Below the pieces are notes generated by a model. The model saw only the letters and a program-made list of their open reading frames with translations, searched no databases and was not told the DNA's origin. A DNA stretch of 64,000 bases from Athripsodes cinereus (Eukaryota; Arthropoda; Insecta; Trichoptera; Leptoceridae): NCBI GenBank assembly GCA_947579605.1, contig OX388305.1:33183542-33247541 (forward strand), given 5' to 3'. This document shows positions 3,597 through 63,639 of the stretch, in pieces (the stretch's first letter is position 1; each line of letters starts with the position of its first letter). The position numbers and the translations under genes are program-made.

Positions 3597-3922
3597 GTAG
3601 GTACATAGAATCGATATATTTTATACTTATCTTAAATTTTTATTTTTTGGCACTTATGTGGTTTCTTATTTGAATTGGTTTTCATGTATTCCGTTCAATA
3701 AAAACTGTGTAGGTGAAAGTTGGCAAACATTTCATTTTAATATTTTTTTAAATAATAATTTCTCCAGAACATGAAATTACTACTACGTTTACTACGATTG
3801 AAATATTTTTTTTATTCAGACACTTAAACATAAGGAATGAAAAATAAAACAACGATTAAGATAATATTATTATGACAAAAAAAAAACTATAAAAACATTC
3901 AGCATAAAGTCAATGATATAAT

Positions 3923-4439
3923 TAGAGGATTCGATCCCGACCCTTTTTTCTAATCCCAAGATTTCGGGATTATCTATAGTTAATCCCGGGATGACTCCGG
4001 TATTGTATTAATAATGAAAATCGGTAAAAAAAAATCAGTAAACCATGTCAAAATCAGCATTTGTTATCTTTTGACAATGTATTTATATTTAAAATTATTT
4101 TTCTTTTATTTTTCTATACAATAAATCACAAACGGCTAAGTGAATACTGTGTGCAAAATATACTTAGTGCACTGAACTAGCAAATTTTCCAACCTTCAGC
4201 ATAGCATTTGGACCATCGGTGACTATTACCACAATATCGGTATCTAATGAAATATCGAACTCAGAAAGGTGCTCTTTTAAGATACGAACACACGTTTCGG
4301 TTGTCAGTGATTCATTATTGCGAATGTGTCCCAAATTCATGAATTATTAAAAAATTGTACTTATCCCGAGAATCCCGGGATTCATTACATTTAATTCCGA
4401 AAATTCGGGTCTAATATACGACCGGGATCGAATCCTCTA
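3923..4439 (-). mobile_element. hAT-like element with transposase relic
   Basis: Both ends carry TAGAGGATTCGATCCCG as inverted repeats. The flanking 8-mers GATATAAT and GGTATACA match at 5 of 8 positions and may be a decayed target duplication. The minus strand at about 4150-4310 reads LKEHLSEFDISLDTDIVVIV then TDGPNAM, which resembles a hAT transposase core (VTDGA..M). Only this fragment survives. Confidence 0.6.
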
Positions 4440-4919
4440 GGTATACAATGCAACATGTTATCGAGGGATTCGATACATTTTTCATTGACATTTTATCAAC
4501 TGCTGTGCCATTATTAAAATATATCACCTAAAGATAAATAAATGCACAAATATGGTATTATTAAACTTCGTCGAAAATAATTTGATTGCTAAATATTATG
4601 GAAAAGATAATAAGATAAAACATTCATAATGAATCATTCAGTTGATTAATAAAATATAGACGCATTGCTTCTGATCAAAACGCCGTAACATTATTATCAA
4701 AAAACTATAAACGAAACATTCAAATAATAATGATATGGATCTGCTATTATATTCATAATTAATTAAATAAGTATTATGTTTCACAAAACATCAGACAATT
4801 TCAGTTATTGCGGTTAGCAACTGTATTACAGTGTATTTTATTAGTCGCTATTTATACTAACTAACCAAATTAATGCGATAATCTATATTTATTTGTATGC
4901 ATAATATATCTATATTTAT

Positions 4920-10640: not shown

Positions 10641-11728
10641 TAATTTATTCCGATTGCAAATATTTATTTCTATAATTATAAATAATCTTCTATAGCCACA
10701 TTAACCAGAAAATGATATACTTAAATACTGGTGCCTTCGTTGTTAATAAATATTTTTTAGATAGTTAGGTAATTACGTAAATAAACCAATATTGAACTTG
10801 ATTTCAGATAATTGTTTACGATACAACATAAAGAGAAATGTATGTTATATTTTGAGATTTAATTTTCAAAGTTTCAATCTTTTCAAAATGTTTATAGTAA
10901 AATCCTATTTCGTAAATTTCAGTAATTAGTCTACTGCTCCTGTCGTGTGTAAAGGTGATTCAATTTTCGTAGCATATTTATGCAATAAAAAGCACTCGTT
11001 TGCAGCAAAATATGGTCTTGAGGGGAGTGTTAAAGAGTAAATGGATTATTTTCTTACAAAAAATTAAATAAAAAATAACACAATATGTTATCTATCATTG
11101 TGTTTCCTTTGCAATTGACTCATACATCACGCGACACACTACAAAAAAATAAAATTTTGAAGTACTCTATTCTGTTTTCAATGGAGCATCTACTCATTGG
11201 CGATTGATCAGGAAATACCTAAATAATCTCCACTCATAGATAAATATATGTAAACAAACTTTTGAGTGTGACTTGCCTACAAACCAAGTGATGAGAAAAT
11301 ATCGGTGAATGATTTTCTTATCTCCAGATAAGATATTATTTATGGATAAGCGATTAAAAATATGATATACGTTGACAATGCCATTTTATTTATAGTTTGT
11401 TTGTTTATTTTTGCACAACAGTAACGAATTAGATATCTACTATAAAAAATAAATTCTTGGATATCGCATATCGAATATTCCAACAAAGCTTTAAGCTTTT
11501 CCGTTCTGAACTAAACTTACACCATGATTTTAAGCCATAAATTAATGTTCGGGAAAGATGGCCTGAAAATCTTTTTTCATCGCTGAACATGTGTTTATTA
11601 CTTATTTATTTTATTCCTCACTGTACATTAGTTACAATATTTCAAATCAATACAAAGTATCATAAAAATATCAGTCATGCAATTCAATTATTTTGATTTG
11701 ATTAGATATAGAACTCGAAAATTGTATT

Positions 11729-12300
11729 TTCCTTTTCTGATTTTTTAACATTTTTTATATATGCTTTAACATGAGTTGAGTTCGTCGGTAGCCTGGAGGT
11801 AGAGTCTCGGCCTTCAGAACAGGGGGTCCGTGGTTCGATCCCAGGTGCCGGCAAACTCCCCTTTCACGGCACAAGCTTTTAGCTTAGTGTGAAAGGTGTA
11901 TAAGGTTGTATTTGGGTTTATAACAAAACCCAGATATATATCTTTTTTAAAAAAAAAAAAAATATATATTTTTATTTTTCATGTTTTTGTTAAATAAAGT
12001 ACTTCAAATTTATGTTCATTTGTAGGTCAGAAAGGGATCTTAATTGTTTTTTGCCTTTTCTGATTTTTTAACATTTTTTATATATGCTTTAACATATATT
12101 TTTATTTTTCATGTTTTTGTTAAATAAAGTACTTCAAATTTATGTTCATTTGTAGGTCAGAAAGGGATCTTAATTGTTTTTTTCCTTTTCTGATTTTTTA
12201 ACATTTTTTATATATGCTTTAACATATATTTTTATTTTTCATGTTTTTGTTAAATAAAGTACTTCAAATTTCTGTTCATTTGTAGGTCAGAAAGGGATCT
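11729..12300. repeat. 130 bp tandem repeat, about 3 units
   Basis: The unit beginning CCTTTTCTGATTTTTTAACA recurs at 11731, 12054 and 12184. The last two are exactly 130 bp apart and nearly identical. The first is split by a 193 bp SINE-containing insertion (323 minus 130). It lies in the segment downstream of the last receptor exon found. Confidence 0.9.
11780..11964 (+). mobile_element. tRNA-derived SINE (family A), copy 2
   Basis: A full-length copy, from GTTCGTCGGTAGCCTGGAGG through the B-box GGTTCGATCCC to ACCCAGATATATATC and a poly(A) run. It sits inside the first unit of the 130 bp tandem repeat. Confidence 0.88.
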
Positions 12301-12443
12301 TAATTGGTTTGCTCATTATTGTAATTAATTGCTATATTTATTGTTTTAACTGTAGATCCATAAAGAATAAATAAAATAATTAAATATTAAGTTGAATTAG
12401 ATAAAAAAGGAAATTTTTTATTAAAAATTAAAGTTTCACTTAC

Positions 12444-23058: not shown

Positions 23059-24300
23059 ATGTTTCATGCAAGTAAAATAGTCACTAGTGTTTTTAAAAAC
23101 AATTCAGTTAAGTTTATACGGAGACCCATTTGTGTAAGTAGTGTATTGTGCAGTTCAACATCTCAACCTAAAAAAACATCACTGTATGAGTTTCATATTA
23201 AGAATGGAGGTAAAATGGTTGATTTCGCTGACCATTTGCTTCCTGTGCAATACGCCAACATGAGTGTATCAGAATCTCATCAATACACAAGAAATAATGC
23301 ATCTTTATTCGATGTATCCCACATGTTGCAGACTTTAATCAGAGGAAAAGATTGCATCGATTGGTTTGAATCAATATGTCCGGTGGATCTAAAGGGAATG
23401 TCCAATGGAAGCTGTTCACTCACTGTATTCATGAATAATAAAGGAGGGATCTTAGACGATTTGATTGTGACAAAAGTAGATGAAAATAATTTGTATGTAG
23501 TGTCCAATGCTGGGAGAATGGAACATGATAAACAACACATGATGGAGCAATTAGAAAAATTCAAGAAACAAGGTAAAGATGTCGATGTAAACTTCTTGGA
23601 TGTCTCTGAAAGATCACTGGTGGCATTACAAGGTCCAAAGGCAGTAGCAACATTACAAAGCATGTGCGAGATAGACTTATCCACATTATACTTTATGAAT
23701 TCGGTAACAACTACAGTTGCTGGAGTAAAGGAGTGCAGAGTAACGAGATGCGGGTACACTGGAGAAGATGGTGTCGAGATATCAATACCCGCACAGGAAT
23801 CTGTGAAAATTTGTGAAATGCTTATAACATCACCCAATATTAAACTTGCTGGACTAGGAGCGAGAGATTCATTGAGATTAGAAGCAGGACTTTGCTTGTA
23901 TGGGAATGACATAGACGATACCCTGACACCAGTAGAAGCTAACCTTGTATGGCTAATCGCTAAACGAAGACGAACAGACGGCAATTTCATTGGAGCTGAT
24001 GTTGTATTGAAACAAATAAAGGAAGGAGTTACCAAGAGACGTGTAGGATTAAGATTAGAATCAGGGCCGCCCGCTAGGAAGGGAGCACAACTCATGCCTC
24101 AAGATAGCACTGAAATCATAGGAGTGGTGACCAGCGGATGTCCCAGTCCAAGCTTAGGAGGAAGTGTAGCTATGGGGTACGTACAGGAACAATTCAAGAA
24201 ACCAGGAACAAATTTAGTGGCTAAAATACGTAATTCAAATATACCGTGCCAAGTAGCCAAGATGCCATTTGTACCTGCTAAATATTATACAAAGAAATAA
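23059..24300 (+). CDS. AMT: Aminomethyltransferase, mitochondrial (glycine cleavage T protein)
   Basis: A 413-residue uninterrupted ORF. The family transfers the methylene group of the H-protein-bound aminomethyl intermediate to tetrahydrofolate and releases ammonia, as part of the glycine cleavage system in the mitochondrial matrix. The N-terminus (MFHASKIVTSVFKNNSVKFI) is basic and Ser-rich with no acidic residues, as expected of a matrix targeting peptide. The enzyme core follows from about residue 39: LYEFHIKNGGKMVDFADHLL, SLFDVSHM, DDLIVTKVD, VVSNAGRMEHD, the folate-domain CGYTGEDGVEIS, LGARDSLRLEAGLCLYGNDI, TPVEANL and VTSGCPSPSLGGSVAMGYV, ending MPFVPAKYYTKK. Length and motif order match animal T proteins across the whole protein. 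There is no intron. It lies between two minus-strand genes. The 271-residue ORF on the opposite strand is a shadow of this gene. Confidence 0.97.
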   Translation: MFHASKIVTSVFKNNSVKFIRRPICVSSVLCSSTSQPKKTSLYEFHIKNGGKMVDFADHLLPVQYANMSVSESHQYTRNNASLFDVSHMLQTLIRGKDCIDWFESICPVDLKGMSNGSCSLTVFMNNKGGILDDLIVTKVDENNLYVVSNAGRMEHDKQHMMEQLEKFKKQGKDVDVNFLDVSERSLVALQGPKAVATLQSMCEIDLSTLYFMNSVTTTVAGVKECRVTRCGYTGEDGVEISIPAQESVKICEMLITSPNIKLAGLGARDSLRLEAGLCLYGNDIDDTLTPVEANLVWLIAKRRRTDGNFIGADVVLKQIKEGVTKRRVGLRLESGPPARKGAQLMPQDSTEIIGVVTSGCPSPSLGGSVAMGYVQEQFKKPGTNLVAKIRNSNIPCQVAKMPFVPAKYYTKK

Positions 24301-26477: not shown

Positions 26478-29400
26478 TCAATGGCAACCACAACTTTTTA
26501 CGACCATATTTTTGTATTTCTTCAATATCACATTGGAGTCGTCCAAAAAGAATAACACAGATATCGCTGTTAACTTTGTTGGAGCACAACATGGCTTTGG
26601 AACCTGGAAATATAAAGTGTAATCAATAAAATAAAATTAATAATGATAATGATGATGGTAATTGAATATGAACAGCTCAAGACCGAAAAATAAATAAAAA
26701 TAATGGAAATACCTAGGTTCATAAATGAACACAAAAAGGTTGAAGATAATTTTAAAATAAGTAAAATAAAAAAAATATATCTACTCAAAATTTTACAGAA
26801 GTTTGACTAAAAAATATGAAAATAAGCTTCCTTTTTACACGTTTGATATTTCCACAAATGTGTGTATATTTATTATTTTCATAATCAAGTTAATATAAAA
26901 TAAACTGATATTTGGAGAGTGTTTGCGTTATTTTAGCCCAATATGTGATAATTTCACGAGTCTAAAGGCCGCTACATAAAATGGTTTAATAATTTAGGGG
27001 GGTAGCTGCCCCCATACTTTCAAAATAAAGTTTATATGCCATTGCCAAACACAGTTTACAATTCAAAATCAAATCTTGTGAAAGAGATAATATAAAATGA
27101 ATTAGATTTCAATAATTGAGAAAGAGTAACATTAGTTTTTAAAGGTAATATTTAAATTGAATCAAACACTGTTTCATTCCACTATGAGATTGTTTTAATT
27201 ATTATAACATTTTCAACTACAATGATGACTACATAGTGGAATCAAACAGTGTTTGATTTAATTTAAATATCATCTTTTATAATGCATTTCCACAAAGTTA
27301 CACTTGAAAATATAGAATATTTAGTAGTTTTATGTTTTCTAAGACTTATAAGAGATATTCTATTTATTATATGGAAAATAATTGGGTATACAATTGTGTC
27401 AACTCACTTCACTTGGCTTCTGTAAATGAACCAATGTCTGTACTATTGCATGATTGGTTGCGTTCATATGGGCATTCAGTGGGAAATTACATTCACCACT
27501 ACAATAGAATGCTCCGTAGCCATCAGGTGCTATAATCCAATCCTGTAATCACAACAACAATTATTATTAAATAGTTTTTGAACAAATATTCTTAGATAGA
27601 ACATAAGTATTAAATAAATTTTTCATTTCTATCTATCTATATTTCTGTACCCTCACACCGTGTCTCAGGTGGGATAGGCAGAGAAAACGGAGAGCCATAT
27701 TCATCTCTTCAAAGATAAGTCATTCATATTTTACTCCCTCTACCTTTTCATTTCAAGTAATTATTTATGCCTATTAAGTGTCCTCTATCCATAATACTAC
27801 ACTCTCTTTCTATCCTGCAAAAGATGCACATCTTCAGATTAAATCATACCTATCGTGATAAACATTAAAATATATTATTATTCCTACAAGAATAGTAAGC
27901 AATCAGTTACTTTAATAAACCTAAGCCAAATTTATGGAAACCTAATGGATGATCGAAACACACAACTCGACCCACATGTTATAAATAGGTAAATCAGCAG
28001 CTTTGGGCTTGTGGTCTCGGCGGATACTTGGAGGGATTCCTGCGTGGGTGGGGTTTGGAAATAACACATTTATGCCTGTAAAGGGGCACAGCATTGCTCA
28101 TGTCTTTTGCTATTATTATTTTTTTTTTAAAAGATATATCTGAGTTTGTTATAAACCCAAATACAACCTTATACACCTTTCACACTAAGCTAAAAGCTTG
28201 TGCCGTGAAAGGGGAGTTTGCCTGCACCTGGGATCGAACCACAGACCCCTTGTTCTGAAGGCCGAGACTCTACCTCCAGGCTACCAACGAACTCAATGGA
28301 ATTTTATTTTTAAGATGTATATGTTGAGCCTGTTGGTGTATGTTTGTAACGAATGAATAAATAAATAAATAGAAAAATAGGTACCTGCCACTCTAAATCC
28401 TTGAAACTGACATATAATGTCTGGATTTTGCAAATTCTGGATGGCCACTGAGAGTAGAGTCCTAAAAACAAAAATAAATATGTATTATGAGTGCATTTAC
28501 ATATTGATTCGTAAATCTAAAATACATATTGAAAAAAAAATATTGCTGAAATGAGTTCAAATTGAATGGAAGAGATGTAGAACTATAAAAAGAAAACAAA
28601 TATAACAAGAAATAGAAGATTTTCCATCTAGTGTAATATATAGGACACATACATCGAAATGAGAAATATGGTTTGCTCCAACTCATTTTGAGGGAAAAAT
28701 TGAGAGTGGTCGCAGTGTAGGAAGGTAGCAGATGTCCTGGCTAAGATATATCTAAGAGTGGACCAGAGTCTAGAGGATCGAAGACCTGTTCCGGCTAGCA
28801 CAGGATATAGAAGCCTACAATAGGATGATGGCCGTAACGTTGGAGGGACCTGGCATGGCACTTTAAGAAGAAGTAATAGATAGAATTGGTTTGTCCCTGC
28901 TTGAGAAAGGTTCATAGGTGCTGAGTGTGAGGAAACTGACACTGCATTTGCAGTGAATGTGCAGAGTGGTTATTCACAACCCTCATCATTGAAGTCAGCA
29001 ACATTTTTTGACACACATTCATCTTCGAATTGAATTGACAGAATCAGGGAATTCATTGTGTTGATGACCAAACCTTTACAAGAGCTATTTGATGGTCGGA
29101 AGTAAATATCTATCAATTTGGTACAATATGCAAATTGATCAATATTTAGTACACGCAAATATCTGCCTCTAAAAATAGTAACAAACAAATTTATTATCTA
29201 TGGTTATTATCTTGCCATTTACAGGTATGTACATGACTGCAGTGTTTGCCCCATCAATCATTGTTTTATGTACCTAAGCCTAATATGCCTCTACACAATT
29301 CTAATGAAACAAACAAGGGTGTGTAAAATATTGGGGCACCTAATTAATCTGTAATGTGATAATGAGCTTTTAGGTAGATTGTTGACACCGATTATTAAGG

Positions 29401-32400: not shown

Positions 32401-35400
32401 TTACAACTAGATTCGCAATGTCATACAAATATTCTCTAAAAATGTGTACCCACCCGTCGAGGTACAATACCTGAGTAATATATATTCATCTCTTTTCTTT
32501 TGTATATATTCATCTCTATCTACCGGCCTTTGTCGTCTGTTATAATCCCCATTCTCATATTGTCTATCTCTTGTTATCTACAAACAATTTATATGTGTGT
32601 CGCTTTCTTTCAAACTAAAAATTGCGGCACCAAGGACCGCAACGAGATTTTATTGATGGTACATGTTTGAGATTCATATTGCAAATCTAGGTATAACATA
32701 TCACTGATGTGAAAAGCACTGGTTTACTCATGAAAAAAACTAGGCAACCACCTAGGGTAGGGTTATAAGAATTTGATAAATATTCTTTAAAAAATAAGAC
32801 AAAAATTTGGGTGTATTTCCGTAGCCAAATTAAACTTATGATTTGAATCAGTAAGAATTTCACTACTAGCTGTAAAATATAATTTGTGAATAAGATCAAA
32901 ATCTAATGTGCAATATTGTGTACACTCAACAACCATAGTTTGTTTCAAACAAAATATACAAACAAAAATAATTTTAGAGTAATATGAATATGGTAGTTAG
33001 GTAATTACATGTAATAGATATACAGGCTGTGATCTCTGTGCCATGAAAAATTAAGACTTTCAGAATGCCACCACTACTATAGCCTACTATATACCATCAT
33101 GACATATCCCATAAGAGGGGTAACCAGGAGACCAACTGTCTGTGATAAACATGCAAATTGTCCTCTCTGTGCCAACGAAAAATTAAGATGAATATGGGCT
33201 GGTATGGGCTTGTATATGGGCCTGTAACCCAAAACATATTGTTTCAATAAACAAATTTAAAACTCCAAAGTGTTTTACTTATAAATATTTAAAAAATTAA
33301 GATATTGAGGATGGGTTGAGAACCTCGTCACTAAATTTAAGATATTGTGAAATATCTTTTCAAACACCTGTCTTTTACAAGACATTCGGAAACTTATGGA
33401 AAAAGTGGGAGACCAATTCTTTGACGGGTGCTCCACGAAACACTTTTCAGAATGGGTGGCATACTTTGTTGCTACATTGAAAATATATGTCTTACATGTC
33501 CTACTATGTGAACTAATGATAAAAAAATGCTACAATTTATAAGGATTATTAAGATATCTACAAACAATTATTTATAATAAAAAAAACATCAACCAAAAAT
33601 ATGATCTGCATGCATTGATTCTAGATCACTGCCACCTATAATACAGGTGGCAGTGTTCTAGATCTATTATAATTATAAAAATTGTTTAATAATAAAAAAA
33701 AGTATTATTATTTAGGAATTTATTGTAGGGTATGTATTATTCACTAATTATCTAATAACTTCCTGGAATGACTCCCAAGTCAATGTGATTATCAGTTTGG
33801 GAATTTACACAGGTAAAAAACCACACACACAAACACAACATACAGACAAAAGGTAGAAGTGGACCTACCTGGAATGAATAGAAAAAAAAGACTTATACTT
33901 AAGTGGTTTTGAGTGGTATTAGTAAATCATTAAATTGTAAAGTGAAGAACTTATACAGTTTAATTTAAATTGGGTAAATATGTTTCTATCAAGCTTTGAA
34001 TTAAATAAAAAATAATTCTTTCACTTTAAATAAAAAAATTAAAAGTTCATAATATACCTAAGATAAAAATAAGAAATTAGGTATTGAATTTTTCACAATA
34101 ATTATGCAGATTTATTATTATGCTAGAAATATTATTATTTCGCCAAATTCTATGTTCTCTTTGTCAACACCTGATAAGGTGCGGCGTGATGTAAAAGATA
34201 GAAACATCAAGACACAATATTATGTAAACAACAATACAATGTATATAAAAATATCTATATGTTTGTAGGTAGCTCTTTAAATGGATATCTATTTGAATTT
34301 CGAACAAAGTTTTCTATTTGTATCAATATCATTAATTTTATCTGTTTATTTAGAAAGCACCATAATCCAGCAACCTTTGCGAGATTAAATAATATTTACA
34401 TAGTTAGGTAAATCACATCGTTTTCAGTAGAAATCGTAGTTAGAACAGGTGTTTTTATGCCGTGAATATTTTCTCCCACAACACCGATTGGTCTGGCGTC
34501 TAGTTACACATTTTTTACAGATATTTTTACATATAGCAAGGAGAAACATCACAAGCCAGCCACCTTAATCATTCCCCAACGAAATATTGACAGTTGCAGC
34601 TTTGGTTTGCTTTGGTTCGACTAGGTTATGTGTCTTCTCGTGAAACATCCCACATTGACGGTATTTTTCGTGTATTATCGCGTCTATAGCATCTAGCAAG
34701 GCCCTGAGAAGTCACCAAGTGATTACGGAGGAAGAATCACATCGTTTTCAGTAGAAATCGTAGTTAGAACAGGTGTTTTTATGCCGTGAATATTTTCTCC
34801 CACAACACCGATTGGTCTGGCGTCTAGTTACACATTTTTTACAGATATTTTTACATATAGCAAGGAGAAACATCACAAGCCAGCCACCTTAATCATTCCC
34901 CAACGAAATATTGACAGTTGCAGCTTTGGTTTGCTTTGGTTCGACTAGGTTATGTGTCTTCTCGTGAAACATCCCACATTGACGGTATTTTTCGTGTATT
35001 ATCGCGTCTATAGCATCTAGCAAGGCCCTGAGAAGTCACCAAGTGATTACGGAGGAAGAATCACATCGTTTTCAGTAGAAATCGTAGTTAGAACAGGTGT
35101 TTTTATGCCGTGAATATTTTCTCCCACAACACCGATTGGTCTGGCGTCTAGTTACACATTTTTTACAGATATTTTTACATATAGCAAGGAGAAACATCAC
35201 AAGCCAGCCACCTTAATCATTCCCCAACGAAATATTGACAGTTGCAGCTTTGGTTTGCTTTGGTTCGACTAGGTTATGTGTCTTCTCGTGAAACATCCCA
35301 CATTGACGGTATTTTTCGTGTATTATCGCGTCTATAGCATCTAGCAAGGCCCTGAGAAGTCACCAAGTGATTACGGAGGAAGAATCACATCGTTTTCAGT

Positions 35401-38400
35401 AGAAATCGTAGTTAGAACAGGTGTTTTTATGCCGTGAATATTTTCTCCCACAACACCGATTGGTCTGGCGTCTAGTTACACATTTTTTACAGATATTTTT
35501 ACATATAGCAAGGAGAAACATCACAAGCCAGCCACCTTAATCATTCCCCAACGAAATATTGACAGTTGCAGCTTTGGTTTGCTTTGGTTCGACTAGGTTA
35601 TGTGTCTTCTCGTGAAACATCCCACATTGACGGTATTTTTCGTGTATTATCGCGTCTATAGCATCTAGCAAGGCCCTGAGAAGTCACCAAGTGATTACGG
35701 AGGAAGAATCACATCGTTTTCAGTAGAAATCGTAGTTAGAACAGGTGTTTTTATGCCGTGAATATTTTCTCCCACAACACCGATTGGTCTGGCGTCTAGT
35801 TACACATTTTTTACAGATATTTTTACATATAGCAAGGAGAAACATCACAAGCCAGCCACCTTAATCATTCCCCAACGAAATATTGACAGTTGCAGCTTTG
35901 GTTTGCTTTGGTTCGACTAGGTTATGTGTCTTCTCGTGAAACATCCCACATTGACGGTATTTTTCGTGTATTATCGCGTCTATAGCATCTAGCAAGGCCC
36001 TGAGAAGTCACCAAGTGATTACGGAGGAAGAATCACATCGTTTTCAGTAGAAATCGTAGTTAGAACAGGTGTTTTTATGCCGTGAATATTTTCTCCCACA
36101 ACACCGATTGGTCTGGCGTCTAGTTACACATTTTTTACAGATATTTTTACATATAGCAAGGAGAAACATCACAAGCCAGCCACCTTAATCATTCCCCAAC
36201 GAAATATTGACAGTTGCAGCTTTGGTTTGCTTTGGTTCGACTAGGTTATGTGTCTTCTCGTGAAACATCCCACATTGACGGTATTTTTCGTGTATTATCG
36301 CGTCTATAGCATCTAGCAAGGCCCTGAGAAGTCACCAAGTGATTACGGAGGAAGAATCACATCGTTTTCAGTAGAAATCGTAGTTAGAACAGGTGTTTTT
36401 ATGCCGTGAATATTTTCTCCCACAACACCGATTGGTCTGGCGTCTAGTTACACATTTTTTACAGATATTTTTACATATAGCAAGGAGAAACATCACAAGC
36501 CAGCCACCTTAATCATTCCCCAACGAAATATTGACAGTTGCAGCTTTGGTTTGCTTTGGTTCGACTAGGTTATGTGTCTTCTCGTGAAACATCCCACATT
36601 GACGGTATTTTTCGTGTATTATCGCGTCTATAGCATCTAGCAAGGCCCTGAGAAGTCACCAAGTGATTACGGAGGAAGAATCACATCGTTTTCAGTAGAA
36701 ATCGTAGTTAGAACAGGTGTTTTTATGCCGTGAATATTTTCTCCCACAACACCGATTGGTCTGGCGTCTAGTTACACATTTTTTACAGATATTTTTACAT
36801 ATAGCAAGGAGAAACATCACAAGCCAGCCACCTTAATCATTCCCCAACGAAATATTGACAGTTGCAGCTTTGGTTTGCTTTGGTTCGACTAGGTTATGTG
36901 TCTTCTCGTGAAACATCCCACATTGACGGTATTTTTCGTGTATTATCGCGTCTATAGCATCTAGCAAGGCCCTGAGAAGTCACCAAGTGATTACGGAGGA
37001 AGAATCACATCGTTTTCAGTAGAAATCGTAGTTAGAACAGGTGTTTTTATGCCGTGAATATTTTCTCCCACAACACCGATTGGTCTGGCGTCTAGTTACA
37101 CATTTTTTACAGATATTTTTACATATAGCAAGGAGAAACATCACAAGCCAGCCACCTTAATCATTCCCCAACGAAATATTGACAGTTGCAGCTTTGGTTT
37201 GCTTTGGTTCGACTAGGTTATGTGTCTTCTCGTGAAACATCCCACATTGACGGTATTTTTCGTGTATTATCGCGTCTATAGCATCTAGCAAGGCCCTGAG
37301 AAGTCACCAAGTGATTACGGAGGAAGAATCACATCGTTTTCAGTAGAAATCGTAGTTAGAACAGGTGTTTTTATGCCGTGAATATTTTCTCCCACAACAC
37401 CGATTGGTCTGGCGTCTAGTTACACATTTTTTACAGATATTTTTACATATAGCAAGGAGAAACATCACAAGCCAGCCACCTTAATCATTCCCCAACGAAA
37501 TATTGACAGTTGCAGCTTTGGTTTGCTTTGGTTCGACTAGGTTATGTGTCTTCTCGTGAAACATCCCACATTGACGGTATTTTTCGTGTATTATCGCGTC
37601 TATAGCATCTAGCAAGGCCCTGAGAAGTCACCAAGTGATTACGGAGGAAGAATCACATCGTTTTCAGTAGAAATCGTAGTTAGAACAGGTGTTTTTATGC
37701 CGTGAATATTTTCTCCCACAACACCGATTGGTCTGGCGTCTAGTTACACATTTTTTACAGATATTTTTACATATAGCAAGGAGAAACATCACAAGCCAGC
37801 CACCTTAATCATTCCCCAACGAAATATTGACAGTTGCAGCTTTGGTTTGCTTTGGTTCGACTAGGTTATGTGTCTTCTCGTGAAACATCCCACATTGACG
37901 GTATTTTTCGTGTATTATCGCGTCTATAGCATCTAGCAAGGCCCTGAGAAGTCACCAAGTGATTACGGAGGAAGAATCACATCGTTTTCAGTAGAAATCG
38001 TAGTTAGAACAGGTGTTTTTATGCCGTGAATATTTTCTCCCACAACACCGATTGGTCTGGCGTCTAGTTACACATTTTTTACAGATATTTTTACATATAG
38101 CAAGGAGAAACATCACAAGCCAGCCACCTTAATCATTCCCCAACGAAATATTGACAGTTGCAGCTTTGGTTTGCTTTGGTTCGACTAGGTTATGTGTCTT
38201 CTCGTGAAACATCCCACATTGACGGTATTTTTCGTGTATTATCGCGTCTATAGCATCTAGCAAGGCCCTGAGAAGTCACCAAGTGATTACGGAGGAAGAA
38301 TCACATCGTTTTCAGTAGAAATCGTAGTTAGAACAGGTGTTTTTATGCCGTGAATATTTTCTCCCACAACACCGATTGGTCTGGCGTCTAGTTACACATT

Positions 38401-41400
38401 TTTTACAGATATTTTTACATATAGCAAGGAGAAACATCACAAGCCAGCCACCTTAATCATTCCCCAACGAAATATTGACAGTTGCAGCTTTGGTTTGCTT
38501 TGGTTCGACTAGGTTATGTGTCTTCTCGTGAAACATCCCACATTGACGGTATTTTTCGTGTATTATCGCGTCTATAGCATCTAGCAAGGCCCTGAGAAGT
38601 CACCAAGTGATTACGGAGGAAGAATCACATCGTTTTCAGTAGAAATCGTAGTTAGAACAGGTGTTTTTATGCCGTGAATATTTTCTCCCACAACACCGAT
38701 TGGTCTGGCGTCTAGTTACACATTTTTTACAGATATTTTTACATATAGCAAGGAGAAACATCACAAGCCAGCCACCTTAATCATTCCCCAACGAAATATT
38801 GACAGTTGCAGCTTTGGTTTGCTTTGGTTCGACTAGGTTATGTGTCTTCTCGTGAAACATCCCACATTGACGGTATTTTTCGTGTATTATCGCGTCTATA
38901 GCATCTAGCAAGGCCCTGAGAAGTCACCAAGTGATTACGGAGGAAGAATCACATCGTTTTCAGTAGAAATCGTAGTTAGAACAGGTGTTTTTATGCCGTG
39001 AATATTTTCTCCCACAACACCGATTGGTCTGGCGTCTAGTTACACATTTTTTACAGATATTTTTACATATAGCAAGGAGAAACATCACAAGCCAGCCACC
39101 TTAATCATTCCCCAACGAAATATTGACAGTTGCAGCTTTGGTTTGCTTTGGTTCGACTAGGTTATGTGTCTTCTCGTGAAACATCCCACATTGACGGTAT
39201 TTTTCGTGTATTATCGCGTCTATAGCATCTAGCAAGGCCGGCCCGCAGGGTCGAATTTCAGAAACGAAATGACCTTGAAGTACTTGAGAGTACTGAGAAA
39301 TGCTAACAAGTCTCAGACTCTGGGAAAGGAAACTCCTGCTCTACTCCTCCATGTATTAGGAGGCGGGCAACGTCAAAAGTAACGACGTAGTAGACAGGGA
39401 CCGATTGTTGGTCGGTATAAGCTAACAACCAACCCTTCTTAACGGAAGATGTTGGAAAGGGCACTCTCTTGCCCGGAGGAGCTAAAATCTTCTCAAAGGC
39501 GGAGGAACCTTCGAGGTCAACGGCATGAGGATGTGGAATGCAAGGGAAGCTACCACATTAAAGGCTCTAGCAGCATCCCAAAGTACCAACGAATTATGAA
39601 AATGATAAGATCTTTAGTAAAATCTTCCGGAGGTAAAATAGACCCCCGTTCGGCTCTCCGGGTGGGGTCTGCTCTAGATCTTGTCATTATGCAGAGTACA
39701 CACGAGAAAGAAGAAGAGGATGTGAGAAGAAAACAAACCAACAGAAACAGCACACAAGGAAGATACGCCACCTGGAACGTCAGAACGTTGCTGCAGAACA
39801 GTAAGCTTGACAACCTAAAAGAAGAGATGAAGAAAATGAAATTAAGCGCGTTAGGAATCTCTGAGATGAGATGGCCTAATCCTGGAGATATGTGGACGGG
39901 AGAGTTTCGACTGATCCATAGCGGTAGTATAGAGGGGAAACCGGGGCAAGGGGGGGTAGGAATCATGTTTAGTAAGGATTTGGGGAGGAGAGTAAAGGGG
40001 TATGTACAGTATGGAGGTAGAATTATTTTAGTCAAGCTAGACACCAGACCCGTAGATACAATACTCATTCAGGTTTACATGCCAACATCTAGCCATAGCG
40101 ACGAAGAAATTGAGAGCATATACGAAAACATCCAGAAATTGCTAGATGACACAAAAGCTGAGGAAAATGTGATTGTAATGGGAGACTGGAACGCAGTAGT
40201 TGGGGAAGAAAGAGAGGGATCAATCGTAGGAGCGTATGGGCTGGGCATTAGAAACGATAGAGGCAACCGTCTTATTGAATTTTGTGCCAAAAATAAAATG
40301 GTTATAGCAAACACATGGTTCCAGCACCACTTTAGACATCGTTATACGTGGAAATCTCCCGGAGACAGATTCCGGTCGCAGATTGACTACATTTTAACGC
40401 GGCAACGGTATAGAAACCAAATTAAAGACTGCAGGAGCTATGCAGGCCCGGACATTGATAGCGACCATAATATGGTTGTGGCGGAAACCATACTGAAATT
40501 CAAAAGGCTCGAGAAGAGAACCACAAAAAGATGGGACTTAAAGCTTTTGAAAACAAAAGAAGTAAAAGAGAAATACGACGAAAAAACTAAGGTTTGCGAT
40601 TTTGAGAGCAATGAAAGTGTAAACAGAGTATGGGAGAAAATCAAAGAGAAAATTACTACAGCGGCAGATGAGGTAATAGAGAAAAGAAAGCCGCAAGCTA
40701 GGAAAGAATGGATTACGGTCGATATATTAGAAATGATTGAAGAAAGAAGGAGGCTAAAGAACTCGAGAACAGAAGAAGGAAAAAAGGAATATAAAATCTT
40801 GAGAAACAAAATCAACAGGGAGTCCAAATTGAGAAAGGAATGCTATCTGCAAGAAAAATGCAGGAATATCAACAGAAATATAAAACAAAGGAAATTTGAA
40901 ACTGCATATTCTGAAGTCAAGAATTTTTACAATGATAAGACACAACCACGATGTGCTATCCAAGATCAAAACGGCAAACTACTGTTTGAGGATGAATTGA
41001 TTGTTAAAAGGTGGAAAGAATACCTAGAACAACTTTACAAAGGAAAGAACATACTTGAGGAATGTAAAGCACTGGAAACAGAATATGACAAAGAAAATAA
41101 TGGAGATGACATCTTAAGAAGTGAATTTGATAATGCCTTATCAAAATTGAAAGACGGCAAAGCACCAGGTATTGACCTAATTCCATCAGAGTTGCTTAAA
41201 TGCGCAGGAAGCGGCATGCTTGACACTTTGTATAAGCTTGTCTGCAAAATATATAACACAGGAGAGATACCTGAGGACTTTGCCAAATGTCTGATACGAG
41301 CGCTACCTAAGAAAACAGGCACGACAAAGTGCGAACAACACAGAACATTAAGCATGATATCACACGCTTCTAAGATACTCACCAACATTATAATGAAAAG

Positions 41401-43769
41401 GGCGGAAAGTAAAATCAACGAAACACTTTCAGAAGATCAATTTGGATTCCGCAAAGAGACAGGTACAAGAGATGCAATTCTGAGTCTAAGACTTGTTCTT
41501 GAAAAGAGAATAACAGTAAATAGAAACACGTATGTAGCATTCATCGACCTAGAAAAAGCATTCGATAAAGTAGAATGGGAACAACTTTTTAAGACTCTAA
41601 ACCAGATAGGAATGAGCTATAAGGACAGAAGAGCAATCTGGAGCCTATACAAGAATGAAATGGCTGTAATTAAAAGCGGAGAGAGCTGCGCAGAAGCGAG
41701 GGTAGAACAAGGTGTGAGACAGGGATGCTCAATGTCGCCAGCACTCTTTAACTGCTATATACAGCGAGCTATTGATGAACTCAGAGAAGAAATGAAGAAC
41801 TGGACAGGAGTAAAAATAAATGGGAAAAAAGTCGACATGATTAGATATGCAGACGACATAGCACTGCTCGCAGACTCCGAGATGGAGCTGAACGAAGCCT
41901 TAGGGAAAATGGAAAGTATACTGTTGTCAAAGTACAACATGAAAATAAATAAAGATAAAACAAAATGTATGGTCGTTGGAAGGGAGGAAGCGACTGCGAA
42001 CATTGCCATAAATGGAGTGAGCATCAAACAAGTAAGAGAATTCGTGTACTTGGGCAGCAGAATAAACCAGGACGGACGCTCCAAATCAGAAATTGTGAGC
42101 AGAATAAACCAGGCACGAATTGCCTTTAACAAAAAATCCAAAATATTAGAATCCCCTAATATTGATCTAAGCGTGAGGAAGAATCTCACTAAAGCCTTTG
42201 TGTGGAGCATTTTGTTATATGGGTGCGAGACGTGGACCATCAGCAAGAGGGAAAGCGGACGGTTAGCGGCATTTGAAATGTGGTGCTATAGACGCATGCT
42301 GAAGATTCATTGGTCGGAACACGTCGAAAACGAAGAAGTGTTAACCAGGGTTGGCGAAAAAAGGCAACTCCTCAAAAGAATCTGCCAACAACGAGCTAAT
42401 TGGATTGGCCACAACATCAGGCACCCAGGACTGCTCATCGCAATCGCAGAGGGCAGGACCGAAGGCACAAATGGCAGAGGTCGACCGAGAGACGCCTATA
42501 TGGACCAACTGAAGAGGGACATGAGCTGTGGCTCATATATGGAGTTGAAGAGACTAGCTGAGAATAGGGAGGAGTGGAGAAATAAGTCAAAACTCGTTGC
42601 AGACCAATCCAATGGATTGTAACTCATTATATAGGTAAATCAAAATGGTGCCTACTCAAGTACATAATTAATCCATCTAAATATAACTGCTAATAAACGA
42701 TAATCGCGAATTAAATAATTATGTACCTAAGTAAGTATTCCCGCTTGCAAGTTGACACATGGGGGAAATCATAGAGATTGTCAACCTGTGGTGTTCGATA
42801 TATTAAATCGGAAAAATTCTATGTTGAGTTTAACTCTTGATAAACAAAAAAAAATGAGTAGGTATGTTAATAGAAAATTTCCTTGATCAAAACGAGTGGT
42901 TGACCTTTCAACATAAAATAAATCGACATACTTACTAAGAATGGAATAAAAATTTAAAAATAATTAAAAGCAAATGATTAGACCAAAATTTGTAAAAAGT
43001 CGTCAGAATTTGTAATGAAACAGGAAGTACCGCTGATAAAATAAATAGATATCTACGTAAACTTACCCTTGATTTCCTACGCTGACAATTTTATGTGCAC
43101 TTATCGTGAAAATTTCCTCTTGATCATACGAATTGTTCGCATATTGGAAAAGTCTAAGTTCTGCATTGAAAATTGACTCTCCTACGGGTGCCTCTGATAC
43201 ATCAAACCAAAGTCTCCTTCCCTTCTCATGCCTCAATCCAGCCCCGTGGTGATCTGGAAGAGATAAGTTTAAATAAAATACTGCACACTCAGCTGTTAAT
43301 GTAGGTAAGTTATAAATATGTAGGTATTGTACAGTATGAAAACGACGTATCAAAATAATAATATATGTATTACAAAATTTAAATTTAGCGCTTTACTTTT
43401 GCTTTGAAAGGTCATAATGACATCGCTCTGATCTATCGCTTGAAGATCTTCCCCACTTAACATCATTTTGGAACTTCTTGTAGGTCTCGCTTCATTCTCC
43501 TCCGCTAGAGATTTATACACATCCAACAAAAATATTGGAGCTGATTTATTGAGAGGAACATTCCTTGCTTTCAAGGGTCTTGATGGTAAACCTAAAAGAT
43601 CTAATATTTCATGTTCCACTAGCATCCTTTCACGACGCGTCATTCCTCGTTGAATTATTGTTTGATCTAGTCCATTGTCGATATATAATCCTGATAAAGA
43701 AGCGTTGACAACGAGAAATATACAACACAACACAAAACATGTAAAAACACGAGATAAACAAAACGCCAT
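26478..43769 (-). CDS. gbb: BMP ligand glass bottom boat (gbb/60A, BMP5-8 type)
   Basis: Seven minus-strand coding exons join in frame to 415 residues: 43397-43769, 43067-43253, 32181-32335, 30837-31031, 28385-28461, 27408-27542 and 26478-26603. The product is a secreted TGF-beta-family signal: signal peptide, prodomain ([42 protein letters not shown]), furin site RKKR in exon 4, then a mature domain of about 133 residues. The mature domain has the cysteine-knot pattern: [69 protein letters not shown] and the C-terminal KSCGCH. All seven cysteines are present, including the one for the inter-chain disulfide, and NAT is a likely N-glycosylation site. These features fit BMP5-8/gbb better than Dpp. 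Exons 1 and 2 are 143 bp apart, then intron 2 is 10.7 kb and holds an antisense 8.2 kb retrotransposon. Start: the only Met before a signal peptide ([20 protein letters not shown]). Confidence 0.96.
27141..27278. repeat. Inverted repeat, about 45 bp arms, gbb intron 6
   Basis: ATCAAACACTGTTTCATTCC and the inverted counterpart ATCAAACACTGTTTGATTCC lie within arms that also share ATATTTAAATT and ACTATG. It is a MITE-like hairpin lying between gbb exons 6 and 7. Confidence 0.75.
27645..27750 (-). mobile_element. Decayed RTE-like LINE 3' end
   Basis: CCCTCACACCGTGTCTCAGG followed by TGGGATAGGCAGAGAAAACGG matches the 3' termini at 660 and 9093. It is preceded by CTATCTATCTAT, the same type of tail as at 644. 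Confidence 0.6.
28119..28293 (-). mobile_element. tRNA-derived SINE (family A), copy 5
   Basis: A full-length minus-orientation copy in the gbb intron between exons 5 and 6, with head GTTGGTAGCCTGGAGGTAGA and B-box GGTTCGATCCC read on the minus strand. Confidence 0.85.
28672..28885 (+). mobile_element. RTE-like LINE C-terminal fragment, decayed
   Basis: Reads [10 protein letters not shown], stop, QMSWLRYI in the plus frame, the IEGRRG-GR--MSWL family with stops. It ends with TTTAAGAAGAAG. It lies in gbb intron 4, antisense to the gene. Confidence 0.65.
29688..30075. mobile_element. TA-flanked MITE (mariner-like)
   Basis: The ends TCGTCCCTCTTCTGACTAAC are identical over 20 bases as inverted repeats and are flanked by TA (29686-29687 and 30076-30077). 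388 bp with no transposase, in gbb intron 4. Confidence 0.82.
30307..30560. repeat. Long inverted repeat, about 48 bp arms
   Basis: The left arm starts TCGTGGGTTTTATGCTAGAA and the inverted right arm TCGTGGGTTCAATGCTAGAA. Both continue ATAGACAACTCAAA or similar. A MITE-like foldback element in gbb intron 4. No clear target duplication. Confidence 0.8.
31164..31399 (-). mobile_element. Short repeat family B (SINE-like), copy 3
   Basis: 236 bp with the family's fixed ends (ACCATCACGG and GTGCTCCACGG). It lies in gbb intron 3, just 133 bp from exon 4. Confidence 0.75.
31500..31670 (+). repeat. Retroelement 3' tail ending in (TTTA)n
   Basis: GACGTTGCTCAGCAACAAGT then CGCCTTTTGGGCC, ending AGTAAAGATTTATTTATTTA. 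It has the look of a non-LTR or SINE 3' end; no coding part. Confidence 0.4.
31951..32095 (-). mobile_element. Short repeat family B, partial copy
   Basis: Carries only the half from ACATTCAGGATGGGTGGC to TGCTCCATGG. It ends 86 bases before gbb exon 3, close to that exon's splice donor side. Confidence 0.65.
32391..32706. mobile_element. hAT MITE, uninterrupted copy
   Basis: Ends CAGTGATATGTTACAACTAG and (inverted) CAGTGATATGTTATACCTAG. Perfect 8-base duplication ATGTGAAA at 32383-32390 and 32707-32714. This 316 bp copy is the empty-site reference for the interrupted copy at 16787-17362. It lies in gbb intron 2, 56 bases from exon 3. Confidence 0.92.
33023..33437 (-). mobile_element. Short repeat family B, broken copies
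   Basis: A partial piece at 33023-33072 is followed by a near-complete copy at 33093-33437. The latter is split by about 110 bases of unrelated sequence (33188-33297) placed after the AAATTAAGAT segment. Confidence 0.6.
33440..34404. other. gbb intron 2, AT-rich flank of the retrotransposon
   Basis: No gene is supported. It contains a small hairpin at 33621-33661 (stem CACTGCCACCT, loop of 7, outer CTAGA pairs). The left copy of the retrotransposon's target duplication begins right at the end. Confidence 0.5.
34411..39239 (+). repeat. 324 bp tandem array, 14.9 units
   Basis: The phrase AATCACATCGTTTTCAGTAG recurs every 324 bases (34411, 34735, 35059, ... 38947). The last unit is cut after AAGGCC at 39239, where the unique leader starts. 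Fourteen full periods plus 293 bp make 4829 bp. By eye I see no base difference among units. 324 is a multiple of three, yet no long ORF runs through, so every frame has stops and the array is noncoding. If a unit is taken to begin at CTGAGAAG, right after AAGGCC, the first (leftmost) unit lacks its first 31 bases while all others are complete. Confidence 0.97.
39240..39448 (+). promoter_or_regulatory. Unique structured 5' leader of the retrotransposon
   Basis: 209 bases between array and ORF. Visible pairings: GCCCGC (39241-39246) with GCGGGC (39363-39368) closing a domain. Inside it are AGGGTC/GACCTT with ATTTC/GAAAT (39247-39276), AGTACT-TGAG-AGTACT (39279-39294) and CTCC/GGAG (39347-39362). 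Just outside, ACGTC/GACGT (39370-39388). It is probably a folded 5' UTR. Its function is unknown. Confidence 0.55.
39449..42622 (+). CDS. RTE-like endonuclease/reverse transcriptase polyprotein
   Basis: A 1057-residue intact ORF. An apurinic-endonuclease-type nicking domain spans about 105-345 ([39 protein letters not shown]). A linker follows, then a reverse transcriptase at about 565-830 with [41 protein letters not shown] near 698, [14 protein letters not shown] and the catalytic [10 protein letters not shown] near 800. The C-terminal region carries [24 protein letters not shown] and [10 protein letters not shown]. Such proteins nick target DNA and copy their RNA at the nick. The domain order, single ORF and very short 3' region fit the RTE clade. 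No frameshift or stop is seen and all named catalytic motifs are present, so it may be active. The first Met is used; Met50 is an alternative. Confidence 0.95.
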   Translation: MLERALSCPEELKSSQRRRNLRGQRHEDVECKGSYHIKGSSSIPKYQRIMKMIRSLVKSSGGKIDPRSALRVGSALDLVIMQSTHEKEEEDVRRKQTNRNSTQGRYATWNVRTLLQNSKLDNLKEEMKKMKLSALGISEMRWPNPGDMWTGEFRLIHSGSIEGKPGQGGVGIMFSKDLGRRVKGYVQYGGRIILVKLDTRPVDTILIQVYMPTSSHSDEEIESIYENIQKLLDDTKAEENVIVMGDWNAVVGEEREGSIVGAYGLGIRNDRGNRLIEFCAKNKMVIANTWFQHHFRHRYTWKSPGDRFRSQIDYILTRQRYRNQIKDCRSYAGPDIDSDHNMVVAETILKFKRLEKRTTKRWDLKLLKTKEVKEKYDEKTKVCDFESNESVNRVWEKIKEKITTAADEVIEKRKPQARKEWITVDILEMIEERRRLKNSRTEEGKKEYKILRNKINRESKLRKECYLQEKCRNINRNIKQRKFETAYSEVKNFYNDKTQPRCAIQDQNGKLLFEDELIVKRWKEYLEQLYKGKNILEECKALETEYDKENNGDDILRSEFDNALSKLKDGKAPGIDLIPSELLKCAGSGMLDTLYKLVCKIYNTGEIPEDFAKCLIRALPKKTGTTKCEQHRTLSMISHASKILTNIIMKRAESKINETLSEDQFGFRKETGTRDAILSLRLVLEKRITVNRNTYVAFIDLEKAFDKVEWEQLFKTLNQIGMSYKDRRAIWSLYKNEMAVIKSGESCAEARVEQGVRQGCSMSPALFNCYIQRAIDELREEMKNWTGVKINGKKVDMIRYADDIALLADSEMELNEALGKMESILLSKYNMKINKDKTKCMVVGREEATANIAINGVSIKQVREFVYLGSRINQDGRSKSEIVSRINQARIAFNKKSKILESPNIDLSVRKNLTKAFVWSILLYGCETWTISKRESGRLAAFEMWCYRRMLKIHWSEHVENEEVLTRVGEKRQLLKRICQQRANWIGHNIRHPGLLIAIAEGRTEGTNGRGRPRDAYMDQLKRDMSCGSYMELKRLAENREEWRNKSKLVADQSNGL
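42643..43066. other. gbb intron 2, right flank; nothing recognised
   Basis: AT-rich intron sequence between the retrotransposon's right target duplication and gbb exon 2. Confidence 0.5.
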
Positions 43770-60127: not shown

Positions 60128-62212
60128 GGGTAGAGGCGGCACCATTCGACAGGTGGGGCACCTATGACATTTCCCGCATATATTTAACTTGAAATAACAA
60201 CGGTTTACTGCTAATATCACTCGCATGTGTTATACATAACTTATGCATAAGTTATACAGTTGTGTCTTGTTGTTTGTGGTAGATACGCATGTTTTAGGTT
60301 ATTCTTGACATTTGATATAATTTTAACGGATACTTTGGTAAGTGTTACATATATTTTTTTTTATAATTCGATGTTTTTAATCACATTTAAAAATTATTTA
60401 ATCATTTATACTATAGATTCTGTATATGAGTAATAAATAATTGACTGTGGGAAACAACTGTTGAATTTTTTTTACAAAATTATTATTGGGGCACCTTCGA
60501 CATATAGATATGGGGTACCTTCGACAGTCTGTCGGAGGTGCCCCAAGTTATTTTTTTATATTTATGCCTACTAAATATTAGTAACATGAGATAAAATAAA
60601 TATGTTTTCTTTTAGAAATAATGGTTCGAAACTACAAAAGAAAAACAGAGGGGGATTCTGTGGATGAATCAAAAATGAAATTGGCTATAGCGGACATACT
60701 TGCAAAAAAAGAAACTAATTCATCGGCAGCAAAAAAATATAATTTAAAAAGAACGACGATAATAACCCGCATCAAAAAACACATGCAAAAAACTAGTGAC
60801 TCTAGAAAAAATAATGATGAAAATACTTTCAAATATCAATCGGAATTTACGTCATCCCAAGTTTTGACAAAATTTCAAGAAACAGAATTATGTGAATATT
60901 TAAAAAAATGTTCTAATATACAACACGGATTAACTTATGATATGGCGAGACGACAATTTGTTTATCAGTATGTAAAAGCAAAAAAGGTTGCTTATCCGTC
61001 ATCCTGGGATGAAAATGGTAAAGGAGGCAAAGATTGGCTGAGAAGTTTCATGAAAAGAAACCCATCAATTAGCCTTAGAAAACCTGAAAACACCAGCATG
61101 GCTAGATTGACTGGGTTTAACAAAAAATCAATTGATGATTTTTTTCTAAACTTAGAAAATGTATGTAAAAAATATGAATTTGCAGCAAAAACATTTATAA
61201 CTTAGATGAAACGGGTGTTTCAACGGTCATGGATGCACCAAAAGTAATATCAGAAAAAGGAAAACGAACAGTTTCTCAAGCAGTTTCAGCTGAAAGAGGT
61301 TCTTTAGTGACAGTTGTGGGTATTATTAATGCTGCAGGAAACCAAATACCACCGGTTTATGTTTATCCACGAAAGCGTTTCAATAATAAATATATGCAAA
61401 ACGCATTACCAGGATCTTTAGGACTGGTATCCAAAAGTGGATGGATGATGGCAGATATTTTTATAGATGTTTTAAAGCATATAAAAATTAACACAAACTG
61501 CTCACAAGAAGCACCAATACTACTGTTGCTGGATAATCACGTTTCCCACTGCAGCTTGGATGCGATTGAGTTTTGTCGTGAAAATGGCATTATTTTGTTA
61601 ACATTTCCTCCACATACTTCACACAAACTCCAACCCCTAGATGTGGCTATATATGCACCATTTAAAAAGTTTTGCAAGGTTGCTTTTAACAACCATATTG
61701 TATCAAATCCTGGGAAAAAAATTACCATAGATGATATTGCAAATCTAAGCAGCCATTTTTGAGAGCATTTACGCCGGAAAAAAATTTTGGAAGGGTTTCG
61801 ATGCTCGGGGATATACCCTTTTAATAGCTTAATTTTCCCCGACGACGAATTTTCTGTGTTAGAAAATGTTCCAGACATTAAAATTGATGATTCAAACGTG
61901 AACACAATGGAGGTGCCCACAAAGTTGGTGGAAACTTTATTTCCTTCTCCAAGTAAAATAACTTGTTAAACGTCGAAGGTAGCCCATAAAGGTGCCGAAG
62001 GTGCCCCACATTGGGGCACCTTCGACAATTCTTAGAGTTTTGTTTTATAGTTAATATTATCTTTAAGAAATAGTAAAACGCAAATAATATCGTATAACGC
62101 TATAGAGAAATGATGTATGTTGAAATATTTGATTAAATTATTTATTTATCATTTTACTGGACCATGTTATTTCGACAAACAAAAAAAGTGTCGAAGGGTG
62201 CCGCCTCTACTC
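60128..62212 (+). mobile_element. pogo-like DNA transposon, nearly complete
   Basis: 2085 bp. The ends GGGTAGAGGCGGCACCATTC and (inverted) GAGTAGAGGCGGCACCCTTC continue GACA, giving 24 bp terminal repeats with two mismatches, flanked by TA (60126-60127 and 62213-62214). It carries its own transposase relic and nine copies of a GGGGCACCTTCGACA-like motif near the ends. It lies just downstream of the piggyBac-like relic. Confidence 0.9.
60621..61969 (+). pseudogene. pogo-like transposase, frameshifted
   Basis: Three frames make one protein. 60621-61205 has an HTH_psq-type DNA-binding domain (SAAKKYNLKRTTIITRIKKH) and a CENPB-like segment (GGKDWLRSFMKRNPSISLR). A one-base loss near 61200 breaks the first catalytic motif, where the next frame supplies NLDETGVSTVMD. 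61229-61762 has PILLLLDNHVSHCSLDAIEF and HTSHKLQPLDVAIYAPFK, giving the DDD triad with the DETG Asp. Further shifts near 61757 and 61785 precede RCSGIYPFNSLIF and the end. The HTH-DDE_1 order is typical of pogo. Few lesions mean a fairly recent death; sequencing error in the A runs is possible. Confidence 0.88.
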
Positions 62213-62804: not shown

Positions 62805-63600
62805 TCGCCCTCAACGCTCCTCTCGGGAGCACAGGGCAGAAACCTTAAGAAAAGGTAGGATGGAGCCGTCCTTTCCCCGGGCCTCGGTATCGTCCCCCAG
62901 CATACTTAAAACGACCAACTACTAACAGAAACAGAATAAAGCCTCGGACACTTGGACCTCTACAGGAGAGGGGTGCCTAATCACGATTTGCTACCTCAGA
63001 GTACTGAGATTAGAGATGTTCATGTGCCTGGACGCCCTTTACCTGCTCTACCCGTGCAATGTAAAATTACGCTCTTGCTGTATGCAAGGTGCTCTGTGAT
63101 ACCATGACGATTCATGGGCCTGAAGCATTTCAAGGAAAGCTGGAGAAAAGGTAGGATGAAGCCGTCCTTTTCCCGGGCCTCGGTATCGTTGGGCTTGTCC
63201 CCTAACATACTTAAAACGATCGACTACTAACAGAAACGGAATAAAGCCTCAGACACTTGGACCTCTACAGAAAAGGGGTCCATTTACTCTCGGGAACATA
63301 GGGGAAAAACTTAAACCTAAAGAAAAGGTAAAATGGAGCAGTCCTTTCCCCGGGCCTCGGTATCGTCAGGCTTGTCCCCTAATATACTTAAAACGACCGA
63401 CTACTAACAGAAACAGAATAAAGCCTCAGACACTTGGATCTCTACAGGGGAGGGGTCCATTTACTCTTGCACGGCTAAAACCGAAAGCAGAAACTTAAAG
63501 AAAAGGTAAGATGGAGCCGTCCTTTTCCTGGGCCTCGGTATCTACTAACAGAAACGGAATAAAGCTTGGACCTCTACAGGAGAGGGGTCCATTTACAGGT
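62805..63600. repeat. Tandem GC-richer repeat, four units of about 178 bp
   Basis: GGTAGGATGGAGCCGTCCTT-like starts occur near 62854, 63149, 63327 and 63505; later spacing is about 178 bp and the first gap is 295 bp because of extra sequence. Shared blocks are CCCGGGCCTCGGTATCG, CGACTACTAACAGAAAC and ACTTGGACCTCTACAG. The last unit has an internal deletion. It is markedly GC-richer than its surroundings. No coding potential; perhaps part of a retroelement UTR. Confidence 0.85.
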
Positions 63601-63639
63601 AGCCCCCTGATTTAAGTATATACCAGACAAAAAATGATG

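Follow-up and report, generated by a model that had tools for sequence, protein, structure and literature searches.

An intact RTE-like retrotransposon of the trichopteran Athripsodes cinereus was found downstream of 14.9 identical tandem monomers of 324 bp, with array and element enclosed by a single 11 bp target-site duplication. Both lie in a window of 64,000 nucleotides (contig OX388305.1 of assembly GCA_947579605.1, positions 33,183,542 to 33,247,541 of the forward strand), which is the whole stretch of DNA analysed and to which all coordinates below refer (Table 1). The arrangement is best explained by an RTE family that carries promoter monomers at its 5′ end and that was inserted here as a unit of 8.2 kb into an intron of the gene gbb, a reading that we judge to have about an even chance of being right.

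Table 1. Coordinates of the features in and around the insertion (positions in the window)
Feature	Position	Strand	Remarks
Left copy of the target-site duplication, TAGGTAAATCA	34405..34415	+	34411-34415 common to the first monomer
Monomer array	34411..39239	+	14.9 identical 324 bp units, in ORF orientation
Initiator-like TCACATC	34413..34419	+	A (34415) at the 5′ junction
Non-repeated 5′ segment ('tether')	39240..39595	+	356 bp between array and ORF
Possible pseudoknot of HDV topology	39241..39394	+	P1 39241-39246/39363-39368; P2 39340-39345/39389-39394; P3 39347-39350/39359-39362
APE/RT ORF	39596..42622	+	1008 aa; AP endonuclease and reverse transcriptase; free of stops and frameshifts
3′ end of the element, CTCATTATA	42623..42631	+	9 bp, from stop to target duplication
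Right copy of the target-site duplication, TAGGTAAATCA	42632..42642	+	Starts after the 9 bp 3′ end
Exon with TGF-beta propeptide (TGFb_propeptide), in an open stretch	43066..43392	-	Pfam; one side of the insertion
Two TGF_beta domain exons of the same gene	27402-27548, 26481-26636	-	Pfam; other side of the insertion

The monomer array and the APE/RT ORF

The period-324 array covers 4829 bp with 100% matches and 0% indels, every base from 34411 to 38915 being equal to the base 324 positions downstream; the original prediction of 14.9 tandem units, all of them identical, was thus borne out, with zero mismatches. It had also proposed that the first unit is 31 bases short, as the outermost monomer of L1 is. 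The arithmetic holds (15 × 324 - 4829 = 31) if 39239 is taken as the last base of a unit, but that phase is arbitrary and, being a matter of choice, makes the shortfall weak evidence for a likeness to L1. The absence of any difference over 4829 bp bounds the divergence within the array at ∼6 × 10–4 substitutions per site at most (95% bound). In butterflies the mutation rate is ∼3 × 10–9 per generation, which would place the last homogenisation within some 200,000 generations.

The G+C content of the array (0.407) is close to that of the ORF (0.412), the flanks having values of 0.269 and 0.338. No blastn match was found within the window between the monomer and either the tether or the ORF, which rules out the derivation of the monomer from one of these, and no further copy of the monomer was seen in the window (the blastn output omits monomer matches of >200 bp; the period scan shows a single array). 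A long ORF within the monomer was also ruled out, the longest open stretch having 52 codons. Rfam and ARAGORN (bacterial setting) likewise led to the rejection of a tRNA, a ribozyme or any other RNA of a known family in monomer or tether; the sole Rfam row returned was the unrelated mir-1275, which scored 19.9 bits where the cut-off is 71. RNA of the monomer shows no unusual degree of structure (z +1.06; equally good folds in 87 of 100 shuffles), and patterns made from the monomer gave 0 matches in collections of viral and prokaryotic contigs.

The ORF is uninterrupted and contains both Exo_endo_phos and RVT_1, with no further Pfam family at E ≤ 0.001, in agreement with the original prediction of an intact RTE-like APE/RT element. 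Its start had been placed at 39449. That frame is indeed open (1057 aa, with an in-frame ATG at 39449), but an alignment of eight relatives puts the conserved start at 39596: six of them begin at, or about one residue from, Met50-52 of the 1057-aa ORF, another begins further in, and the remaining one has an unlike, longer N-terminus. The 1008-aa ORF was therefore taken as the conserved one. The stretch 39590-39700, ahead of the endonuclease domain, encodes an N-terminal motif conserved among the relatives (SGGKIxPxSDLRxG); its DNA could also pair, as judged by eye, as a candidate pseudoknot (CCGGAG/CTCCGG with GACCCC/GGGGTC).

As in RTE elements, a single ORF specifies an AP endonuclease followed by a reverse transcriptase, with no RNase H, and the 3′ UTR is very short (9 bp). 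The simple-sequence repeat usual at RTE 3′ ends is absent; this trait is best regarded as usual rather than defining, since the 3′ UTR of RTEs is described as holding repeats regularly or often in the available text of PMC2887409. The hairpin that can be drawn at the 3′ end is unremarkable, 18 of 200 shuffles folding as well.

Among the best 120 of 206 matches, the closest relatives of the 1008-aa ORF are psyllid proteins with 58-60% identity, and the 14 that bear an organism name all come from psyllids or aphids. In a quickly built tree with 116 rows (115 of these best 120 matches, five of ≤850 aa having been dropped, and the ORF itself), the ORF was sister to four psyllid proteins, with an SH-aLRT support of 99. 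Several relatives in the tree are named craniofacial development protein 2, which we take to be RTE-derived. The element is assigned to RTE by its architecture, by its short 3′ end and by what its relatives are named, the tree consisting only of database relatives and having no reference RTE sequences (RTE-1, BovB, JAM1) among its rows. No lepidopteran relative is named among the best 120 of 206 matches, most rows of which are nameless. Horizontal transfer of the RTE is a possible thought, and is kept at that level because most relatives are nameless, the comparison covers the best 120 of 206 matches, and the search scored only the 7985 best candidates. Relatives were also sought in viral and prokaryote contigs, where 0 of the 23 and 144 pattern matches (respectively) were confirmed.

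One target-site duplication around array and element

Pfam domains on both sides of the insertion (Table 1) show that array and RTE lie within an intron of a minus-strand gene of the TGF-beta family. This agrees with the predicted location in a gbb intron; the domains themselves point to the TGF-beta family, and the gene is taken to be gbb/BMP-like, the name gbb being that of the original prediction. With the host gene on the minus strand, the element is antisense to it. Other features were observed in the same window. An intronless ORF of 413 aa for an aminomethyltransferase (23059-24300) is only ∼70% identical to its best lepidopteran relatives; it gave 7958 matches at E ≤ 10–50, and the organisms named among the first 78 of the 120 listed are all moths or butterflies. 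A broken DDE transposase is present at 60621-61762 as two adjacent ORFs; the first has 194 aa, the second 177 aa and a DDE_1 domain (E = 1.8 × 10–14). A unit of 130 bp occurs in 2.7 copies (98% alike) at 11964-12310, with a further piece at 11727-11772, and imperfect tandem units of ∼177 bp (84% matches) occupy 62831-63605, near the end of the window. These last repeats (62.8-63.6 kb) were considered as a second RTE 5′ end and rejected, as they gave no blastn match to monomer, tether or ORF.

The 11-mer TAGGTAAATCA, for which the chance expectation in the whole window is 0.05, is present at both ends of the insertion and a third time at 27986-27996, 6.4 kb upstream in the same orientation; this third copy is probably due to chance, no partner having been found for it. 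The original prediction had placed the repeat just before the array and again nine bases after the ORF stop. The nine-base gap is correct (42622 to 42632), whereas the left copy proved to overlap the array by five bases: only its TAGGTA lies outside, and its last five bases, AATCA, are the first five of the monomer. A sharing of these five bases has a chance probability of ∼0.0017 at the composition of the window. Either element and target had a microhomology at AATCA, or these bases belong to an 11 bp duplication and the element begins at 34416. Joining of the cDNA end to the target through microhomology has been described for R2 (PMC3774820, in the text available), and would explain the shared AATCA. 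A duplication of 11 bp is within the range of 6-12 bp given for lepidopteran RTEs in the available part of PMC2887409.

When random pairs of window stretches were compared in a generous search (26 × 100 positions), ≥11 bases were shared in 9 of 4000. With stretches of 21 × 31 positions, modelled on the two ends, 83 of 200,000 pairs drawn at random from the window had an 11-mer in common; pairs lying <500 bp from each other were passed over but still counted among the 200,000. If the array bases are excluded, leaving only TAGGTA, the relevant figure is that for a 6 bp match, which was seen in 30,513 of the 200,000 draws (15%). The ∼25 bases to the left of the array also share 9 bp with the 3′ flank, far from the end of the element.

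A duplication belonging to the RTE alone was sought in the 30 bases before 39240, whose longest match to the 3′ flank is 6 bp and misplaced; no monomer position shares ≥7 bp with 42623-42680. Insertion of the RTE into or beside a ready-made array, with a duplication of its own, was thus ruled out for lack of a fitting repeat. The array ends exactly at the duplication and is not resumed downstream of the element. The claim that one target-site duplication encloses both therefore stands, given the rarity of the 11 bp match and the absence of a duplication for the RTE alone. As in L1, the monomers of this one copy lie within the target-site duplication, upstream of tether and ORF. Since the RTE by itself has no target duplication, array (whatever its length at the time) and RTE very probably entered the site together; their common orientation, their similar G+C content and the fit of the boundaries to one unit support this further.

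The 5′ end of the element and the origin of the array

If the monomers are part of the RTE family, target-primed insertion would have brought 8.2 kb into the gbb intron from an RNA that begins inside the monomer array and continues through the 356 bp tether and the ORF to the 9 bp 3′ end. Each monomer would probably have its own transcription start, the outermost intact start setting the 5′ end, by analogy with mouse L1, and the element would in this way bring its own promoter to each new site. The array would then travel with the family, and the 14.9 units would have been there at insertion rather than arising by later unequal exchange. A full-length insertion would place the first RNA base at 34411-34416, where the A of an initiator-like TCACATC coincides with the 5′ junction. 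The initiator motif is YYANWYY, and the monomer has three such sites per 324 bp, with no full match to the DPE motif at the usual distance; at this density the site at the junction is weak evidence, and suggestive only. Against the promoter-monomer reading count the single copy seen and a fold of HDV topology starting at 39241, which suggests that the usual 5′ end of the RTE is at the border between array and tether.

The tether RNA (39240-39596) folds better than 100 of 100 shuffles (z -2.75). A scan for the P1-P2-P3 topology over 640 starts (38900-39539) ranked 39241, one base past the array, highest as a 5′ end, with the runner-up at 39340 (44 vs 45). The score at 39241 was reached by 0 of 1000 shuffles in which the first 8 nt were kept, a figure to be read knowing that the descriptor was written after the pairing had been seen and that two P2/P3 sets compete; in a broader search, scored slightly differently and likewise with a post hoc descriptor, 1 of 100 shuffles equalled or beat the pseudoknot. 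A double pseudoknot can thus be drawn that resembles, as a model, the HDV-like ribozymes at the 5′ ends of R2, R4, L1 and RTE, and that would put the 5′ end at the array/tether border. Unlike those ribozymes, the fold at 39241 lacks both P1.1 GG/CC and a clear catalytic C in J4/2, and Rfam returned no HDV match for tether or monomer; these absences, the post hoc descriptor and the rival P2/P3 sets leave no case for an active ribozyme. HDV-like ribozymes that cleave at the 5′ junction have been reported for RTE (PMC3774820, in the text available). Together with the fold at 39241 and the 276 bp 5′ UTR of HmRTE-e01, this gives a fair hint that 39240 is the ordinary, or ancestral, 5′ end of the RTE.

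Such an end would suit a one-off chimera, in which a template jump at the 5′ end of the RTE RNA (∼39240) onto an unrelated RNA of a 324 bp satellite or other repeat left one duplication around an array foreign to the RTE family. We consider this unlikely, even though the fold at 39241 and the cleavage of RTE 5′ junctions described in the available text of PMC3774820 would make 39240 a normal 5′ end, and the 356 bp of the tether are close to the 276 bp given for the 5′ UTR of HmRTE-e01 in that of PMC2887409. The monomer also has no likeness by blastn to tether or ORF within the window, but it was not seen elsewhere there, the period scan showing a single array and the blastn output omitting monomer matches of >200 bp. 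A length of 4.8 kb is, in our judgement, great for the product of a jump. A similarly small probability is given to expansion in place, that is, to an array that had just one or a few 5′ monomers on insertion and reached 14.9 units at this locus through unequal exchange or slippage. The perfect identity over 4829 bp (≤ ∼6 × 10–4 per site) suggests an amplification so recent that it may postdate insertion, and young mouse L1 subfamilies average 3-4 monomers, with >10 at only seven loci (PMC9022269, in the text available); however, equal homogeneity would be expected had the source array been freshly amplified. Expansion in place would in any case need at least a monomer and part of another in the RNA, and so modifies the promoter-monomer reading rather than opposing it.

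That the RTE merely neighbours a pre-existing 324 bp satellite array, the 11 bp repeat being coincidental, is very improbable. Only six of the 11 repeat bases lie outside the array, the 11-mer has its third copy in the window, and TAGGTA and its complement TACCTA are frequent there (45 and 38 times, respectively), all of which would suit coincidence. Yet an 11-mer at those places is expected by chance in ∼4 of 10,000 cases, the RTE has no duplication of its own, the array ends at the element, and orientation and boundaries fit one unit. It is also improbable, to much the same degree, that the number of units (though not their presence) is an artefact of assembling a perfect repeat. A walk through a repeat graph would equally give 14.9 identical units, but neither flanks nor tether recur in the window, and modern long reads comfortably exceed 4.8 kb. 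Within the favoured reading of an RTE with its own monomers, we propose, tentatively and as something rather doubtful, that an RTE lineage evolved a heritable array of promoter monomers independently of L1, upstream of an ancestral 5′ end, ribozyme-like but now unable to cut; the loss of 5′ self-cleavage would be what let the element take along and amplify sequence lying before that end.

Relation to other elements and meaning

In mouse LINE-1 (A, Tf and Gf), monomers confer promoter activity and a tether precedes the ORF, and monomer arrays with a tether are also found in some other vertebrate L1s (PMC9022269, in the text available). The likeness to mouse L1 as described there extends to head-to-tail monomers at the 5′ end, an incomplete outermost monomer and a non-repeated tether before the ORF. 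Unlike mouse L1, the present element has a single ORF of the RTE type and 14.9 identical units of 324 bp, whereas young mouse subfamilies carry few monomers on average and many monomer subtypes (PMC9022269, same text). With the lepidopteran RTEs (HmRTE-e01, BmRTE-d01 to -d25) it shares a single APE/RT ORF (990 aa in HmRTE-e01 vs 1008 aa here), an extremely short 3′ UTR (14 bp vs 9 bp here) and, as they do, duplications of variable length (PMC2887409, in the text available). HmRTE-e01, in contrast, has a plain 276 bp 5′ UTR right after the duplication, and the available text of PMC2887409 mentions no 5′ monomer array for it. The 3′ end without a simple-sequence repeat is a further difference from these lepidopteran elements.

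Among non-LTR elements outside L1, SLACS has 185 bp repeats upstream of its RT ORF. The FoTeR telomeric elements, also outside L1, likewise bear variable-number tandem repeats at the 5′ end, upstream of the RT ORF (PMC12857005, in the text available). Unlike the present element, both belong to other clades, with a restriction-like endonuclease, and the FoTeR repeats were sought as units of 6-100 bp (PMC12857005, same text). No description of 5′ monomer arrays in RTE was recognised in the literature searched, a collection thin on subscription journals, available in part, and in which terms with an apostrophe such as 5′ UTR are unsearchable. The arrangement, already known in L1, would be new for RTE, provided that other copies bear it out.

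The gain of promoters by promoterless non-LTR elements, and the rise of monomer arrays, have been studied almost only in mammalian L1. If the promoter-monomer reading is true, a compact insect RTE would offer a second, unrelated case, in which the factors that favour such arrays could be tested directly, the candidates being promoter renewal, template jumping and loss of 5′ self-cleavage. If the insertion is instead a one-off chimera, it would be a clear example of a retrotransposon bringing satellite DNA into the intron of a gene.
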